The position numbers were made by a program, and so were the translations under genes. Shown one piece after another: positions 9,981 through 63,134 of a stretch of DNA of 64,000 nucleotides; positions within the stretch are counted from its first letter, which is position 1; every line of letters begins with the position of its first letter. A model generated the notes under the pieces. It ran no database searches, had not been told where the DNA came from, and saw nothing but the letters and a program-made list of their open reading frames with translations. The DNA comes from Pezicula radicicola (taxonomy: Eukaryota > Ascomycota > Leotiomycetes > Helotiales > Dermateaceae), in NCBI GenBank assembly GCA_003008705.1, contig PDUO01000006.1, positions 381,295 to 445,294 on the forward strand, written 5' to 3'.

Positions 9981-10828
9981 TCAGAGGGGGTCGACGTGGC
10001 TAAGGCGAGCCTCATTTTTATCCCGCTTTCGTTGAAGAAACTCCTGAAATTTCTCTAGGGGCTTTACGAAGCAGTGTTTTTCCAAGTGGCCAACCGAGTT
10101 GGGATTATTTTTCTCGCAGTATCCACATCTCTTATACTTTGGCTTTCCCTTGCCGTTGTTCTTGCCTCCGTACGAAGCATCTTTGTGGTTGTCTCTAATT
10201 GAAGATTGTTTTGTTCGAGCCTCCTTGTGATATATGTCTGCAATAAGGGCATCCAATACTGGCTCGGTCGTGGTATCTAATTGTCGCTTAGCCCATATTG
10301 GATACGCATTTTTGAGTCCATTGATGAATACAATTGGCTCAAATACGGCACCAAAATGGAGTTCGAGATGACGGAGCTTGTCAATTACGGCTTTAGAGGC
10401 AGCTACATAAGCTCTCAAATCGTTGTGTCTTCGAACTTCATTTTAACAAAGCTGAGAACTGCGTCTTCCCTTACGCCGTAAGTTTCGTAGATTTGTTTGA
10501 TAGCCTCCCACATTTCAAGAGCAGTCCCGTTGGGACGAATCGTAACTTCAGCCAGTGGGTTGTCGTTGACAGTTAAGAGAATTCCTAGAGAGGCTCTGAC
10601 ATCCATCATTTCCCAGGCCTCCCAACTTTGAAGTTCGTTAGCGTTGTCATGATTCCATTCAACGCGCTTGGGGCGATGCTCAAGACAACTAGGGTCAATG
10701 AACTCGTATAATCCCTCCCTTTTCATCATTTCAACCATAGCTCCCTTCCAGACGAAGTAATTGGCCTCGCCCTTGAGCCGTTTTCTCTTGGGCAACATCA
10801 AATCGGGTATTGAAAATGGCTTGGTCAT
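9981..10828 (-). mobile_element. Truncated Ty1/copia-type retrotransposon gag, frameshifted
   Basis: Two adjacent minus-strand frames together read as one gag polyprotein of the copia/UBN2 type. The first (from the ATG at 10828) has the N-terminal region containing the YFVWKGAMVEMMKREGL segment and stops at 10415. The second continues in another frame with DLRAYVAASKAVIDKLRHLE, which is the normal continuation of such gag proteins. It ends with a zinc-knuckle-like motif (C-x2-C-x9-H-x4-C; the spacing is longer than the canonical CCHC). A one-base change at the junction is the simplest explanation. No protease, integrase or reverse transcriptase follows on the downstream side and no LTRs were found, so this is a relic. 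Confidence 0.7.
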
Positions 10829-12460
10829 GACAACCTGCTTGGATGGTTCGGTTTCTGACTGGAATCTGGGATCACTGAGTGTTCGACTCGGTGTCTGATT
10901 CTTTGGAGTTTAAGTAAGAGCGTTCGGATGGAGGGGAAGAGCTGGTATGTTCGAGGGCGTCTGATATCGCTCAGATTTAGTATGCGGAATCGGCTTGGGG
11001 AGTTGTACGATGTTCTGCGGGATCTTGGAGTTGGGATTCTTCCGCCACTTCGACGGAAAATGGGATGATAAAGGAAATACTCGTGTGTTGGCAAGCAGCA
11101 CTTTTAGATGTGCCTCGCACCAAATTGGGCTGCAGTGAAGCACAACTCCACTCCTTCATAAAGCATTCACTTTGGAAGTGGATGATGATGTGGATGGTAT
11201 TTCTCCGCAATCAGGACGTGTGCCTAAACGTGAGCAGGCTGTACTTGATTTCAATTTTGTTGTTGATTTTGTTGTTGTTGAAGGACTGAATTTGGCAAGG
11301 AAGCTTGATGCGCTACAACAGCACTGGACTTAGTGAATAAGTGAAGTTTTATTGGCTAGTGGTTTCCTTGGTTGGAATTTCTTGATTCTGTAGAAGGTCA
11401 CGGCTTGGAGAAGCCCGTCTGTTGAAAAGAACGTAACATGCAGAGTTAAGGACAGGAGACAGTCCCTATTATCGCCCTCAGGCTTTTTTGATCTCTATTT
11501 CCTATTTGCATCTGAGGTGCTGCAGATCCCCATTTCAGTGATATCTGGATATATTTTCGAACGCTATTTCATTGGCTCAATAGGTAGATTCTTTTGTAGG
11601 TACTTCTTCAATTCGTAGTTGACTCTCTTGATTCTCTTGGGTTTCTCTTGTTAATTTACTTGTAGTAGGTGGCGTAGTGGAAGATGAATGAATACTTAAT
11701 TGTGCTTCATAGGCAATTCATATGTAATTTTTAGGGAGAAACAAAACATGTGTCTTGTATTCTCAGAACAAGAGTGCCAAAATAGATATTTTTGTATCAA
11801 GGAGAAAGAATTAAATAACGAATTACCTTCTAGATACTTCGACATTCAATACTAATAGCCAGATCACCCCTCCTCTAAAAGTAGTCCAAGTACCAACAAA
11901 TAAATCTCATCAACTAGTAAGCGTCTCTTTTCCCAATTAAGTCAAGTGTAAGCAACGTACGCAGTAAAACAAAGTAGAAACCAATAGGATCTAAATAACG
12001 ATCTTCAAATTAATAATCACCAAGTTCTCAGACCTTCTCGGCTACTTTGAGAATAGACTCAACTGTCCAGAAAGGAAAGAGAATACGACACTTCGTATAA
12101 CGAAAGGGGAACTAGGACAAAAACACCGTCGCACAATACATTTCCAGATCAATAAAGCGGTAACTTGAACTCTTACTTAAGCTAAATTCGGGGTATCTAA
12201 TCTAATAACCGTACACTAAACCAAACCCACGGTTTCAAATGAACCTCCTCCCCATGCTATGTGAATGGTGACACTGAGACTTGAGCCAGCGAAACGAAGC
12301 TAACTCATACAAAAACAAAAAAAAACCTAAAAACCAAAAATTATACACCTCCCATAAATACAGATTTCGTTGTTATCATCAAGATAAAAAATACCTATGA
12401 AGTACTCTATACTTCGTACTCCTACGCTGACAAAACAATCTAACCACGAGAGATTGCTGC
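10829..12460. other. Intergenic, nothing recognised
   Basis: Several overlapping short frames between 10.83 and 11.29 kb lie directly upstream of the gag relic and may be its worn leader or flank. The remainder is AT-rich without motifs. The last 100 bases probably hold the 3' end of the membrane-protein gene that follows. Confidence 0.45.
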
Positions 12461-37329: not shown

Positions 37330-39331
37330 TCAAACGTTGCCCCCGTTGTGTATTGTGCAACCAATACAGTCACAGTCATCCCCACAAGGACATATCTGTT
37401 CATCGCCCGGACAAGGAATAGTAGGACCCCTGTGAATGGTGCAGCCTAAGCACTCACAGTCATCTCCGCAGGGACAACTCTGTGTCTCACCGCCACATCC
37501 ATCTGAATTAAAGGGATAGTTGACGAAGAAGAAGTCCGAAGCCGAGAAAGTCTGTTCGTCGCCGTTTTGGGAGTTTGTGCTTGAAGGAGTGTGGGCGGCA
37601 ACGGGTGATGAGACGCTCTCAATATTGTTCATATTGGTGTGGCCGTTGGTATAAACTTCCGACGATCCTGACTGAGGTTCCCGACCCATGGCTTCCCAAG
37701 CAGACCGTACATAGCTTTGTGTTGCGTCGTTGTAAGGATGTGCAGCGCAGCCGATACATTGACAAGTATCTCCACAACCACAAGTATGAACCGTATCGAG
37801 TGTCTCGGGTATAAGTGGTGCACCAAAAGCCAACGCGTTAGGAGGCGGCACCGGGTGCGTATAACTGTGGGCCTGTATACTCTGCCTCCATTCTGATGGT
37901 TGGAGAGGATTCTGGTAGGAACCATAGGTCGGAGGGTATGTGAAGACTGTTGGCTGAGGCATGTAGGGAAATACGGGTATGCCATCATGCGGGGATACCA
38001 CTTGTGACATCGGGGGACTACCTCCCTTCGACGTGGGCTCAATTTTCAATGGCGGGGCCTTTCTCGAGCAGCATCCTCCGGCGGCCGTTGGTTCGGGAGG
38101 TTCTGAGATTGAGCTAGCTGTTGAAGAAGTGTGGCTATGAGTGAGCTTTGGCGCGCAGCATGACGATCCATTCGACGTCCCATTCGTGGAGCCATTTGAA
38201 GCAGGCTTGGGTGCACAACATGATCCTCCATTCGATACCCCATTCGATGCTCCGTTAGAAGGCAGCTCTTGCTTAGGTGCGCAGCACGAACCGCCGGTAG
38301 ACATAGCATTGGAGAAATTTGTTGGTGTACCTAGAGGACTCTCAATCACATGTTCGAGGCTACTATAACCACTAAATCCACTTTTCATGTCACTCCCCCA
38401 ACCATTCTGAACGGGGCCCCCAAGAGAGTGTATTGGAACAGGTTGCATGGGAACGTAACCATATTGTGTTTGGACATGAGCGTATTGGGGACTGGGATAG
38501 CCGTTTTGCATTGGGGGACCTGAATTTTGGTATCCAATAGGTATTGAAGGTGACATGCCATTTGGCTGTTGTTCGAATGGGAGTATGTTGATGCTAGCCA
38601 TATCCATTCGGGAAAAGTTTGATGGGTCAAAAGATTGCTTCCTGCTTGACGGCTTTGACGCTGGTTTCTGAACTCGAAATGTGACTTTTGTAGGAGATGG
38701 CGCATCTACGGCTGATGAGTTTAGATGCTGTGGGACAACTGATGATATGGCCGGCGCAGGTTCAGCATCTGTCCCGCAACCGCACTGTTGTTTTCGAGGT
38801 ATAGCAGCGGTGACACTGCCACAGGCACATTGTTGATTTGCAGGATGAGGGCAAGCGCTTAGAGGTCTTCCTGGTTTCCTGACGGGAACCATCAACCTCT
38901 CGTTCGCATGTGTACATTTCGTTGATCGATGTCCTCGGATACATGGCTCACTGCGGGCAGATGTTAATAAATGCTCTGACTAGTCTACTTGTGTAGGTTG
39001 AGGGGAAAACTTTGCGAAGACTTGGACTTGGATTTGGATCGGCTGTATGACCAACAGAGAATGCGATCCGCTAATCAGAGGCCTGTCTGTGAAGACAATC
39101 ATATCAATGATAACTTCAATGGGTAGGAAGTTCCATGGTTAGGCACGAAGGCTTCTTCGCGATAGACCTAGGCCATTCTAGAGACTGAGGTCTAATTTTC
39201 CTCCAACGTTATGTCCCCCGCCCTATACGATCTGATCGTGCGACTTGAGGCTCAAGCACAACCCCAGCGCCAATGTCTCAAAAAAAGAAAAACACATACC
39301 AGGCCATCTTCTGCCCATTAATCAAAGGCAT
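37330..39331 (-). CDS. Copper-fist transcription factor with cysteine-rich metal-sensing clusters
   Basis: A short exon 39331-39300 (MPLINGQKMA and two bases) joins exon 38950-37330 across a 349-nt intron, giving 550 residues. The N-terminal copper-fist has C-x2-C-x8-C-x-H (C11, C14, C23, H25), the RGHRSTKC core and the minor-groove element KPGRP. A second Cys-rich patch follows (HPANQQCACGSV, KQQCGCG). Residues 230-280 hold three spaced SCCAPK motifs separated by Ser-Asn-Gly repeats, then a CC pair in GGCCSRK. Three C-x-C-x3-C-x-C-x2-C clusters lie at about 400-412, 503-514 and 531-542. In the Mac1/Cuf1/GRISEA group such clusters bind Cu(I) and gate activity, controlling copper uptake genes; Ace1-type factors control metallothionein. 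I infer a copper-responsive regulator, direction of response unknown. Confidence 0.88.
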
Positions 39332-50169: not shown

Positions 50170-52316
50170 CTATGTTGGCTTACATGTCCTTTTTTGTTTC
50201 AAGCAGTTGTTGCACCTAGTAGTGTTCTTGGGATCTAAATATACCCGGCAAGTTTGGCCTTTATCGCGGCAAGGCTTGCACCCACCACTAGGATGAGGCT
50301 TTCCCTCATGCCCTTCGATACGCTCAGCATGTGCATGATCTCTCATAGTGCTCGCAGCAGGAGCCCGGTTCTTAATAGGAGCCGGTGTGAAGAGCGAGCT
50401 AGAAGGATTTGCAAGCGATGTAGCAGGAGAATGGGATGGGGTTTGTGAAGTAACCCTGCTAAGCTCCCTAGTTGGTGGTATATTTCCACGATTGTCCTTA
50501 CCAAATTTAGTGCTGAAATTGTGCAACTTCGGACTGACGGAGGGTTGCTGCGGTGGTGTGCTTTCTTCATTGTTGTCATCGCCTGGCTTTGAGCTCAACT
50601 TGATCTTGATTTTGGGCCCTGACGGTGATGTGGAAGGTACGCTAACTTTAGTAGAGCCGAAAGACGCCGCCTTCGATTTCTTTGCCTGGAACTCTTCTGC
50701 TGAATCCACGGCCTTTCCCTTATTCGTTGTTGACGGGGTGGAGGGCTCATTTTCACGACCAATAGCCGTCTTCGATTTCTTTGTTGAGAGCTCTTCTATT
50801 GATCCAACTGCTTTTCTCTTGTTCATTTGCGGCGGGGTGGAAGGCTCATTTCCGCGGCCGATAGTTACCTCCGTGGTACTATCCGCAAATCTCGTAGATT
50901 CTGTCTTCGTTGGCCGTGGTTCTCTTGGGTTCTCGCAGCTCTGGCATAGGTTTCTTGCGGGTAAAGGTCCATTCATCCATTCTCTACTTGCCACGATACC
51001 GCAATTGGAACATGTTGCCCGCGCCCTTGACAAGGTCTTTCCAGTTTCTGCTCTTGTCTCTGCCTTGGGTGAAACTTTCTTGATACGGCCCGACACTCTT
51101 GTGCCAGGTACGACGGCATTTTCGAGCACAACTGTAGGCGCAGGTGGAGGGTCAAATCTTGAAATGTACTCATTACCATTACCGTCGACTCTGGTGTAAT
51201 GGTACTTTCCACCCCTTCCCCTCTTTCGTTTTACAGTCCAAATTATCTTCACACGTTTGCCATCCTGTTCTTCGTCATCCTGTTGTTCGTCTTGCTTTTG
51301 TTTTCTTGGTACTGGTATAGGTGGAGGCATAGGCGGAAGCGTCGCCTCTCTCTCGCTGGCTTCTCTCTCTGTGGCCTCTTTCTCTTCAGGTGGCTCTTCA
51401 AGCTTCTTATTACGTTTTTCCGGTTCCTATTCAAGAGTGGTTAGCAAACCTTTTCCAAATCACAACCGACCAGTGGGTTTGGTGACTAGGTCTATGCCAA
51501 GTGACACTCTCACTGAGAATAAGGAGAAAGAGAAGATAGTTTGGGAGGGAATACGGACCGGCAAGTTGCTCATTGGGATATACTTGGGGCAGCCACACGC
51601 TAGGAGAGTTATACGATGTAATCGAAGGTTAGGAGTTGATGGCCAGTAATACAGGTTTCTTGATTGTTTGTGGCTATTGGCCGATGACGATCCTGCTGGG
51701 TCCTGGCCCTCTGGTGATTGTGTCGAGCCGTTGGAAATTGTGCAACTGCGGGCTGGAGATGCTGTTGGCGATTGCTGGTGTTGAATGCGTATCCCGTTTT
51801 CGCGCCTCCAGTTTTCTGTTTCTGTGAGAGTTAGGTTAATGAAGGTAAGCGCGCAATAAGAGAAGATTGATGGGGATTTTGCATCTGGTTAAGACAGGAC
51901 TTACCGATCCATCTGTTTATGACCTCGTTTATAAGATTATCATTCCCATCGGCTCTCATGCCTCCAGGGCCGGACGCCGGATTGTGGTTCTCCCATTCAT
52001 CCGAATCATCATAGGCTTCAAGCCTAGAACAGGCTGGACGCGGTTGCGCTCCATGATCCGTTAGGATGCTATAGGTAGCTTTGCAGTGACTGCAAAGGTT
52101 CCAAAGGTTCTTTTTGTCTCCTTTCGCCGTCTTGAGTTTCTTGCAGGGCCCAGGAGAAGTACATACCCCCTTGAGTATGTTAATGGCTGGAGATGAGGGC
52201 CAATAATGCGGAACAGAGTTAAGAGCCATCTCGGGCTGAGCGGGCTGAGCGGGCTGGTTCGGATTCTTGGTAGACAGCTCGGTGGGTGTTCGATTATTTC
52301 TTCCGTTGGTTGTCAT
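50170..52316 (-). CDS. Nuclear protein with three cysteine modules (GATA-like and Zn2Cys6-like)
   Basis: Three exons (52316-51905, 51821-51559, 51426-50170) give 643 residues in phase. Module 1, residues 52-78, is C-x5-C-x16-C-x2-C with NLWNLCSHC. Module 2, about 364-389, is C-x2-C-x18-C-x2-C with CSNCGIVASREWMNGPLPAR and then NLCQSC, close to a GATA zinc finger. Module 3, about 608-640, is C-x2-C-x6-C-x11-C-x2-C-x6-C, the Zn(II)2Cys6 pattern with a long central loop and a basic end. Between them lie low-complexity Ser/Pro/Lys-rich segments, including a near-perfect tandem duplication of about 33 residues (around 412-478) built on IGRxNEPSTP and KKSK, the latter looking like repeated nuclear-localisation signals. 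I infer DNA binding; the regulatory target is unknown. Confidence 0.75.
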
Positions 52317-60544: not shown

Positions 60545-63134
60545 CTAGGATGCTGTATTTTTCATCTTTCCAATGCGGTGCCATGATGAACGTGACTTCA
60601 GATAGATCGGCCTTCCCACAAACTCATCATCTGAACCATCAATCCCCCAGTAGCTTCCCTTCCCAGGATCCTCGCCGGGTCTCCACTGTCGCACAAATTT
60701 CTTGTTCGTAGAGAGCGTAGATCTGATCGCATTTTTCCAATCTTTCCTCATCGGTACATCATCACTGTAGAAAGAATACGTATCAGAAATCCACCTGTAT
60801 ATTTCTGCGAGTCGTAGCTGGCGATCGGAGGACTCCACAATAGCCATGCCTGTATGCCCAAAAGCTCTGAGTCAGTATAATTATTCTAGAAGTTGAGGTA
60901 TAGTTTTGAACAAAGTTTTATGAGTAAAGGGCAACATTAATTGCTAAATGGGGAGAGTCTCCTTCAATAGCTGACTTACCTATAAGTTGTGTATAAGAGT
61001 GTGCAGGCTTGGACCCATCATCATATTGTATCACGGATAATTCTTCTTCTTCTTGATCCCTCCTCTCGCGATCTTGAACTCTTTTCGTTTTCAGACCTGA
61101 AGATGCCCGTCTTGGAGACCTTCCGTCGCTTTTCTTGCTTTCACTCCGGTGTCGCCCACGCGTTTGCATCGGCTGGCGAAAATCGTACGTGGCATCCAAC
61201 AGAGAATCTTCGTCGGGTTGGAAAGAATCTTCCTTGCTTTGCGGGTTCTCTGTAGTGGCTATCTGGTTGTTCGGACCTTGAGAGTGACTGCGACTTCTGG
61301 AACCTCCATTGGCTGGGCCTGCGGAGCTGACTCGAAGCAAAGATGTAGTCTGATCATGAGGAGGTCTTGGAGAGGTCGAAGCCATTGTGGTAGATGATCG
61401 TAATAAGCCCGAAGTACTCACAACGATTTCATCATCGGAATGGGAGGGAGGCGCGAGACTAGCCGACGACACATTCTCGGCCGATGCATTACCAGAGCCA
61501 TTTGTACCAGGCTCCTCCTTGTATGATACCGCCTTGGATCGTCCATCCTCGACATAGATTTCCTGGACCTGCTTATGGACGGCTAGTTGAAGTCTCAGCG
61601 ACTCTATTTCAAGTTTGTTTCTCCTGATCGTTTCTTCTTGCACACTTAGAGTGTCGTCTTTACTCTTAATAGTCACCTCACTTGAAGTAATCAAGGCTTC
61701 TAAGGTCTTCATCAACTCTTCTCGAGACGCAGAGTGTGCCTCTGCCGCAGCAAGCGCCTCGCTCTTCAAGGCCACTAACTTATCCAAGTCCACAATATGC
61801 TGATGCTTTTGTCCAATTTCTTCGTCCCTCTGTTTCAGCATGTTCACTAAACTCAGCGCATGCTGGTCTCTCGCCGCTAGCAAGGTGGCTTTATGAGAAT
61901 TATGTGATTTATGAATCTCTTCCTCCCTCTGCTGCTGTTCAGCCTTGAGCTGCTCTGTCTCCTTTGCAGCTTTCCCCATCTCAGCTGTTAATTTAGCCAT
62001 ACTCTGCAGAAGCTGCTGTCGTTCTACATGCCAAGTTACAGGCTCGGATGTTCCTTCCGGACTTGGGATCTGCTTGTTTACTTCGACCTCTTTCCTCTTC
62101 AACTGGACTTCCTCTGCAAATTGCAATCTTTCACGCTCAAACATTTCATTCCGTTTGCTTAGTTCCTGCCACTGTGCTGCTAGCTGATCGCGCTCTTCTT
62201 GAGATGCTTCGTAGGAATTCTCATCTTGACCTTGGGCACCAGGCTCTTTTCTTTGTTTTAATCTGAGTCTATCGTTGTCCTCCATAACTACACGTAAATG
62301 TTCTTCAAGAGTAGTTAAGCGCTTTGCAATGTCCCAATTCGTTTCCTCGAGTTGCTGCTTCTCGGCTTTCAAGGCCTCAATTTCTTGCCTCTTGCGTTCC
62401 CGCGACTTCTCAGCAGCCAGACGATTACTAAGAAGCCTCTCAACACGTCGTTGTTCCCTTTCATCCTCAGTCTTCGCACGCTTTCTTCTGTGCGGACTAG
62501 GGTCCTCAGCCGATAGCGACCGCGGAACAGTGGAGGTAGATTGCCCATGTTGCTGCGTAGAGAATGTCCGCTTGTGATTCTGCCCCTCCACGTTGTGTTT
62601 GCTTCGGTCATCGTCCTCGCTAGCCATCCCCGAAACCTCTCTGTCTCTATGGTCCAGGCCACCATTGTGTTCAATTTCATTCTCGTTTGCATTCTCATTC
62701 TCGCTTTCGACTTCTAGAATCTCGAAGTCCTCCTTGCCAGCCATAGTTGAATTTGACTCTTGGTTGCTCGATTCGTAATTGGCGGCCGTAGAGCTAGCGT
62801 ACCCAGGAGTGAGGAAATTAATGAATTCAGTACTCGTAATAGGAGGGTATCCACAAGCGTCCCCTCGTTTCGCACAACGTGCACATGGTTTTCCCTCGTC
62901 GCATTTGACCTTGCTAGCCCTAGGAATTCGACTCAGTGAATAATCTAGCCTACGCGGGGGAAGCGGAACTCACCTGCAGCTGTAGCAGATGACTTTTCTG
63001 CTCCGCCTATGTACGGCAGTGTTGACAGCGTTTGATATGCTATCAGTTGTGCTTACAACTTTATGTGCTGGCTCGTCGTGTTGATATGATGGCGTGCTAT
63101 CTCGGATTGTAGCAGCATTCTCTTCTCCGGGCAT
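60545..63134 (-). CDS. Zn2Cys6-bZIP-coiled coil-forkhead fusion transcription factor
   Basis: Three exons (63134-62974, 62919-60980, 60849-60545) give 801 residues; both joins keep phase. A TAA lies directly before the ATG at 63134. Residues 50-76 are a perfect Zn(II)2Cys6 cluster (C-x2-C-x6-C-x5-C-x2-C-x6-C), with the first intron after CYSCR. Residues about 200-270 are a bZIP: HRRKRAKTEDEREQRR, then NRLAAEKSRERKR (N219-x7-R227), very like HacA/Hac1, followed by a zipper. A long Glu/Gln/Lys coiled coil runs to about 480, then Ser-rich sequence. From about 691 a forkhead domain begins in exon 2 (KPAHSYTQLI) and continues in exon 3 (GMAIVESSDRQLRLAEIYRW; DWKNAIRSTLSTNKKFV; PGKGSYWGID). Each domain is well formed, so I infer a nuclear DNA-binding regulator; targets are unknown. 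An internal ATG at 62744 could give a form without the zinc cluster. Confidence 0.85.

Follow-up and report, generated by a model that had tools for sequence, protein, structure and literature searches.

A predicted three-exon gene of Pezicula radicicola joining a zinc cluster, a HacA-type bZIP and an HCM1-type forkhead

Gene model and domain composition

The window analysed here is a stretch of 64,000 nucleotides from Pezicula radicicola (Helotiales, Dermateaceae; assembly GCA_003008705.1, contig PDUO01000006.1, positions 381,295 to 445,294), and our subject is a predicted gene at 60545-63134 on its minus strand, to which all coordinates of the gene refer. Exon 1 (62974-63134) runs from the start codon to the second cysteine of a Zn2Cys6 zinc cluster and is followed by intron 1 (62920-62973, 54 nt, phase 2, GTGAGT...CCTAG), located inside the cluster. 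Exon 2 (60980-62919), contained in a 683-codon open frame, holds the remaining part of the cluster, a bZIP, a long coil and the beginning of a forkhead, while the bulk of the forkhead, the C-terminus and the stop are found in exon 3 (60545-60849), beyond intron 2 (60850-60979, 130 nt, GTAAGT...CATACAG, with a branch-point-like CTGAC site seen by eye). Both introns are GT-AG and their removal leaves a frame of 802 codons counting the stop, that is, a product of 801 residues. These exon coordinates, introns, phase and product length had been proposed in an earlier, sequence-only reading and all were reproduced upon recomputation. That reading had also placed zinc cluster and bZIP in one unbroken frame, which is correct for four of the six cysteines, but the complete cluster needs the removal of intron 1, as the first two cysteines are in exon 1.

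All three domains exceed their curated Pfam cut-offs, and the earlier claim of one gene for three DNA-binding domains is well supported by the sequence. Zn_clus (PF00172) matches residues 50-81 with 35.8 bits (cut-off 21), the cluster itself spanning residues 50-76 (62853-62987, intron 1 included); bZIP_1 (PF00170) matches residues 207-262 (62295-62462) with 34.6 bits (cut-off 27.6), and bZIP_2 scores 24.6 (cut-off 22.3); Forkhead matches residues 690-774 (60629-61013, intron 2 included) with 86.8 bits (cut-off 27). The six cysteines of the cluster, at residues 50, 53, 60, 66, 69 and 76, are the sole cysteines of the protein and fit the CX2CX6CX5-12CX2CX6-8C spacing of PF00172; a cluster of this family would bind two zinc ions and DNA. 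This pattern emerges only upon splicing, and occurs just once elsewhere in the six unspliced frames of the window (50182-50280). A chance origin was considered and rejected, none of 30 sequences of 64 kb drawn at random from a first-order Markov model carrying the pattern.

The bZIP has NxxAAxxSR in its basic region and leucine heptads after it, with L237, L244, I251 and L258 at the zipper d positions. With 37 alignment rows AlphaFold2 predicts helices at residues 205-278, 288-334 and 350-509, most blocks having a pLDDT of 77-94 and the ends lower; taking both model runs together, the two long helices beyond the bZIP (residues 288-334 and 351-511, 61548-62219) have a pLDDT of 76-96 in most ten-residue blocks, again with lower ends.

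Concerning the coding character of the gene, a codon score was trained on 13 long frames of this genome. For every gene segment the predicted frame has the highest score, and a positive one, with 0.21 (-0.094 in the next frame) for the rest of the zinc cluster plus the linker (exon 2 to residue 194), 0.263 for the bZIP, 0.232 for the coil, 0.268 for the second linker and 0.075 for the forkhead; the 5' region scores negative in all three frames. The second splice is confirmed, because the LIG and MAI that it joins run on continuously in proteins of two relatives, Phlyctema vagabunda and Coleophoma crateriformis. For the first splice we surveyed 150 scored Zn_clus matches in the genome (out of 564 candidates, so that counts are lower bounds), at least six of which start at profile position 7, just beyond the second cysteine. 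Ten loci were fetched, these six and four starting at position 5, and in four of the ten a script found a splice completing the cluster, in each case by removal of a phase-2 intron of 54-70 nt right behind the codon of the second cysteine. Intron 1 matches these four other Zn2Cys6 genes in site and phase. The same donor is visible by eye at a further locus (L074) and not at L077, and the script found no such splice at L080 to L083. A search of open-licence papers for introns within zinc clusters gave no match.

Relatives and kinship of the domains

The whole product was compared with 5.8 billion proteins in a word-based search that scored the 7994 candidates sharing most words. Two of the 12 matches cover 76% of the product: a fork head domain-containing protein of P. 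vagabunda (P0001, 745 aa, 43% identity) and the hypothetical protein BP5796_07859 of C. crateriformis (P0002, 699 aa, 45% identity), both from Dermateaceae, Helotiales. The remaining ten, aligned over 6-15% of the product, are bZIPs or forkheads, some of the latter bearing the name HCM1. A second search of the same kind with the Coleophoma protein as query (7991 candidates scored) gave 100 proteins. By pattern, a forkhead helix is present in 77 of the 111 proteins returned, a HacA-type basic region in 35 and a zinc cluster in one; P0001 and P0002 are alone in having two of the three, and no other protein has all three in the three word-based protein searches made, the third of which scored 5 candidates. 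Hence, the novelty claimed for the architecture holds in part: bZIP and forkhead are already joined in two deposited proteins, but the combination of all three domains was found nowhere else in these searches. No paper on a bZIP-forkhead fusion, or on the two deposited proteins, was found by title and abstract start in the open-licence literature.

Fungal transcription factors with several different DNA-binding domains, to which the present protein is alike in this respect, have been catalogued (Shelest 2017, PMC5415576): zinc cluster plus bZIP in 10 of 191 genomes, and a three-way type of zinc cluster, C2H2 and homeodomain in 64 of 191. Table 3 of that work contains no forkhead type; since a combination had to be present in 5 or more genomes, rarer ones being assigned to other groups, an uncommon type with a forkhead would be missing from it.

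P0001 and P0002 share with the Pezicula protein the bZIP, the long coil and the forkhead in the same order, as well as the rewritten recognition helix described below. The P0001 bZIP scores 28.1, above the Pfam cut-off of 27.6, and that of P0002 26.7, just under, though the database lists a bZIP there. Their zipper d positions are L, I, L, L or L, V, L, I, and an asparagine at an 'a' position (N248) is common to all three fusions. Compared with the Pezicula protein, the two relatives reach identities of 88 and 89% in the forkhead and of 66 and 72% in the bZIP, against 37 and 40% in the coil and 17-27% in the two linkers; the relatives are closer to one another (97% in the forkhead, 79% in the bZIP), a pairing with which the bZIP tree agrees (99/85), whereas the forkhead tree pairs the Pezicula protein with P0001, unsupported (84/0). 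The relatives differ in lacking Zn2Cys6 and in starting with MTMFKP and MFKP, which are absent from the Pezicula gene. A hidden upstream exon with such a start was looked for and rejected, as neither FKP nor MFK is encoded in any of the three frames of the minus strand within the last 4 kb of the window or the stretch adjoining it upstream.

The labels HacA and HCM1 are those of the source annotations of the matched proteins. In a bZIP tree of 40 rows, whose bootstrap had not settled, the three fusions group together (97/80) and adjoin the HacA rows (92/89), with P0074 (Lachnellula) and the HacA-like row of this genome lying nearest by path, which bears out the HacA-like character earlier assigned to the bZIP. 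The genome has a separate HacA-like frame of 520 codons. Basic region and zipper are closest to HacA/Hac1, but the fusion lacks the HacA C-terminal region, matches to HacA covering just 6-7% of the query, and is joined instead to the coil and the forkhead. It also lacks the peptide LC[DE]..QC, which we take to be the HacA peptide at the Ire1 splice site, in all three species, a weak test alone as the peptide is carried by only 21 of 33 HacA-like proteins. The coil (residues 263-511, 61548-62292) aligns to nothing in the HCM1 rows, and the HacA matches are confined to the bZIP.

In the forkhead tree (45 of 81 rows kept after removal of near-duplicates) the three fusions group (100/100) within 26 HCM1-type rows (99/99), many of them unnamed and one of them the genome's own HCM1-like gene, a separate frame of 842 codons. 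The stem leading to the fusions is long, with 2.26 changes per column, and two very long-branched rows (own_C76 and own_C109) are placed unsurely. No second copy of the fusion was seen in the genome, the next forkhead match being the HCM1-like gene. The fusion forkheads differ from HCM1-type ones in lacking the HCM1 C-terminal half, in extra residues directly before the recognition helix and in the helix itself (WKNAIRSTLSTNKKF, residues 738-752, 60695-60739), which reads NAIRSTLS instead of NSIRHNLS, identically in the three species. Asn, Ser, Arg and His of this helix are base-contacting (PMC7062188). In the fusions two of these four are replaced: Asn740 and Arg743 are conserved in 37 of 37 aligned rows, while the three fusions have Ala741 and Ser744 where the remaining 34 rows have Ser and His. 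The positions changed are described in the same FOXN1 paper as strictly conserved even among forkheads of differing specificity. Since the recognition helix is not canonical, DNA binding by the forkhead cannot be assumed. AlphaFold2 predicts that the winged-helix fold is kept; the forkhead was modelled poorly with 3 alignment rows (block pLDDT about 50) and at higher pLDDT with 37.

Proposed mode of action and its alternatives

The sequence itself shows the frame, the presence and order of the three domains, and to which families bZIP and forkhead are related. The reading we favour, with a probability of roughly 0.6, is that of one three-exon gene combining zinc cluster, HacA-type bZIP, coiled coil and HCM1-type forkhead in 801 residues, whose dimer would tie two different DNA sites together. 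The protein is likely a lineage-specific HacA-HCM1 fusion acting as a coiled-coil dimer with altered forkhead specificity, so that a single molecule would probably be able to recognise different kinds of DNA site together; the up to six DNA-binding units earlier proposed for such a dimer are a possibility. Zipper and coil would form a parallel dimer, in which the paired bZIP basic regions may hold a HacA-like site and the paired forkheads, located at the opposite end of the rod, would recognise an altered sequence owing to the replacement of two base-contacting residues; close to the bZIP site, the zinc cluster may make an additional contact. The last helix alone, in a parallel coil, would span ~24 nm (at 0.15 nm per residue), and bridging of two sites is for this reason favoured over a single compact site. 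With the HacA C-terminal region absent, the fusion is probably not activated by the unfolded protein response as HacA is.

The following points weigh against this reading. Dimerization and bridging are deduced from the heptads and the predicted helices, and the changed recognition helix could mean that DNA binding is lost, not altered. As to the zinc cluster, AlphaFold2 confidence is low (block pLDDT 42-54 with 3 rows and 56-70 with 37), the protein models of the relatives have no cluster and contain one cysteine each in all, the codon score of exon 1 has only a slight lead (0.091 vs -0.011 in the next frame), and no protein sharing the N-terminus was found, a weak test with only 5 candidates scored.

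The alternative that survives best, which we nevertheless hold to be unlikely, draws on the relatives and on the weak exon 1 score: the working product would be a two-domain bZIP-forkhead protein, with the zinc cluster optional, cryptic or decaying, made mainly from Met113 (62742-62744), the next in-frame ATG past Met1, or with intron 1 kept, in which case an in-frame TGA follows directly after CYSCR. However, all six cysteines of the cluster and their spacing are intact in a protein with no others, exon 2 up to residue 194 scores as coding, and intron 1 agrees in position and phase with introns of further Zn2Cys6 genes in this genome. The cluster may have been gained in this lineage or lost in the relatives. 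No recent donor was seen within the genome, where the best other match has 43% identity (E 4.9e-6), and the single match elsewhere, a Tuber magnatum zinc-cluster protein (E 0.038, just 5 candidates scored), says little.

Somewhat more doubtful still is that the forkhead has given up sequence-specific DNA binding and now serves as a protein-interaction or dimer module. The Ser to Ala and His to Ser changes at base-contacting positions would agree with such a role, as would the additional residues immediately before the helix, but Asn and Arg of the contacting set are retained, the predicted structure keeps the fold, and across the three species conservation is by far highest in the forkhead. 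We regard as improbable a composite of several of these ideas, in which a HacA-HCM1 dimer bridging two sites with a forkhead of new specificity would have its zinc cluster toggled by intron 1 splicing, yielding forms with three and with two kinds of domain from one gene. Finally, that two or three adjacent genes, or a misassembly, were taken as one is very improbable, given that the zinc-cluster remainder and the bZIP share the 683-codon frame, that two further species also have bZIP, coil and forkhead in a single protein and that the gene is interior to a 1.66-Mb contig.

Should the altered helix recognise a novel site, this would represent a further forkhead recognition mode beside FKH and FHL. 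The system also offers a natural test of the stepwise gain of DNA-binding domains in transcription factors, because members of the parent families persist in the genome, a two-domain form is found in the relatives and the forkhead changes are common to three species.

Other features of the window and genome

A weak forkhead-like match (25.2 bits, below the cut-off) was found elsewhere in the genome (L008, 1225-1947, minus strand; G000:C98:213498), in a frame that also has a CX2C-rich stretch. The second Zn2Cys6-spaced pattern of the window (50182-50280), not called by Pfam, lies at the C-terminus of a 418-codon frame (50170-51426, minus strand), which further contains a CX2C...CX2C stretch resembling GATA, with a GATA score of 16.5 bits against a cut-off of 26.8. 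Two frames at 9981-10909 (minus strand) resemble by eye remains of a retrotransposon gag; Pfam gave no match in the part tested, 9984-10442. The copper-fist DNA-binding domain, PF00649, scores 41.4 bits (cut-off 25) in a frame at 37330-38979 (minus strand) that has C-terminal cysteine-rich repeats. Upstream of the fusion gene and on the opposite strand (L026, ~780-1202), a short, cysteine-rich, metallothionein-like start (CCGKSDKGCVCGKR) is seen by eye, in divergent orientation.
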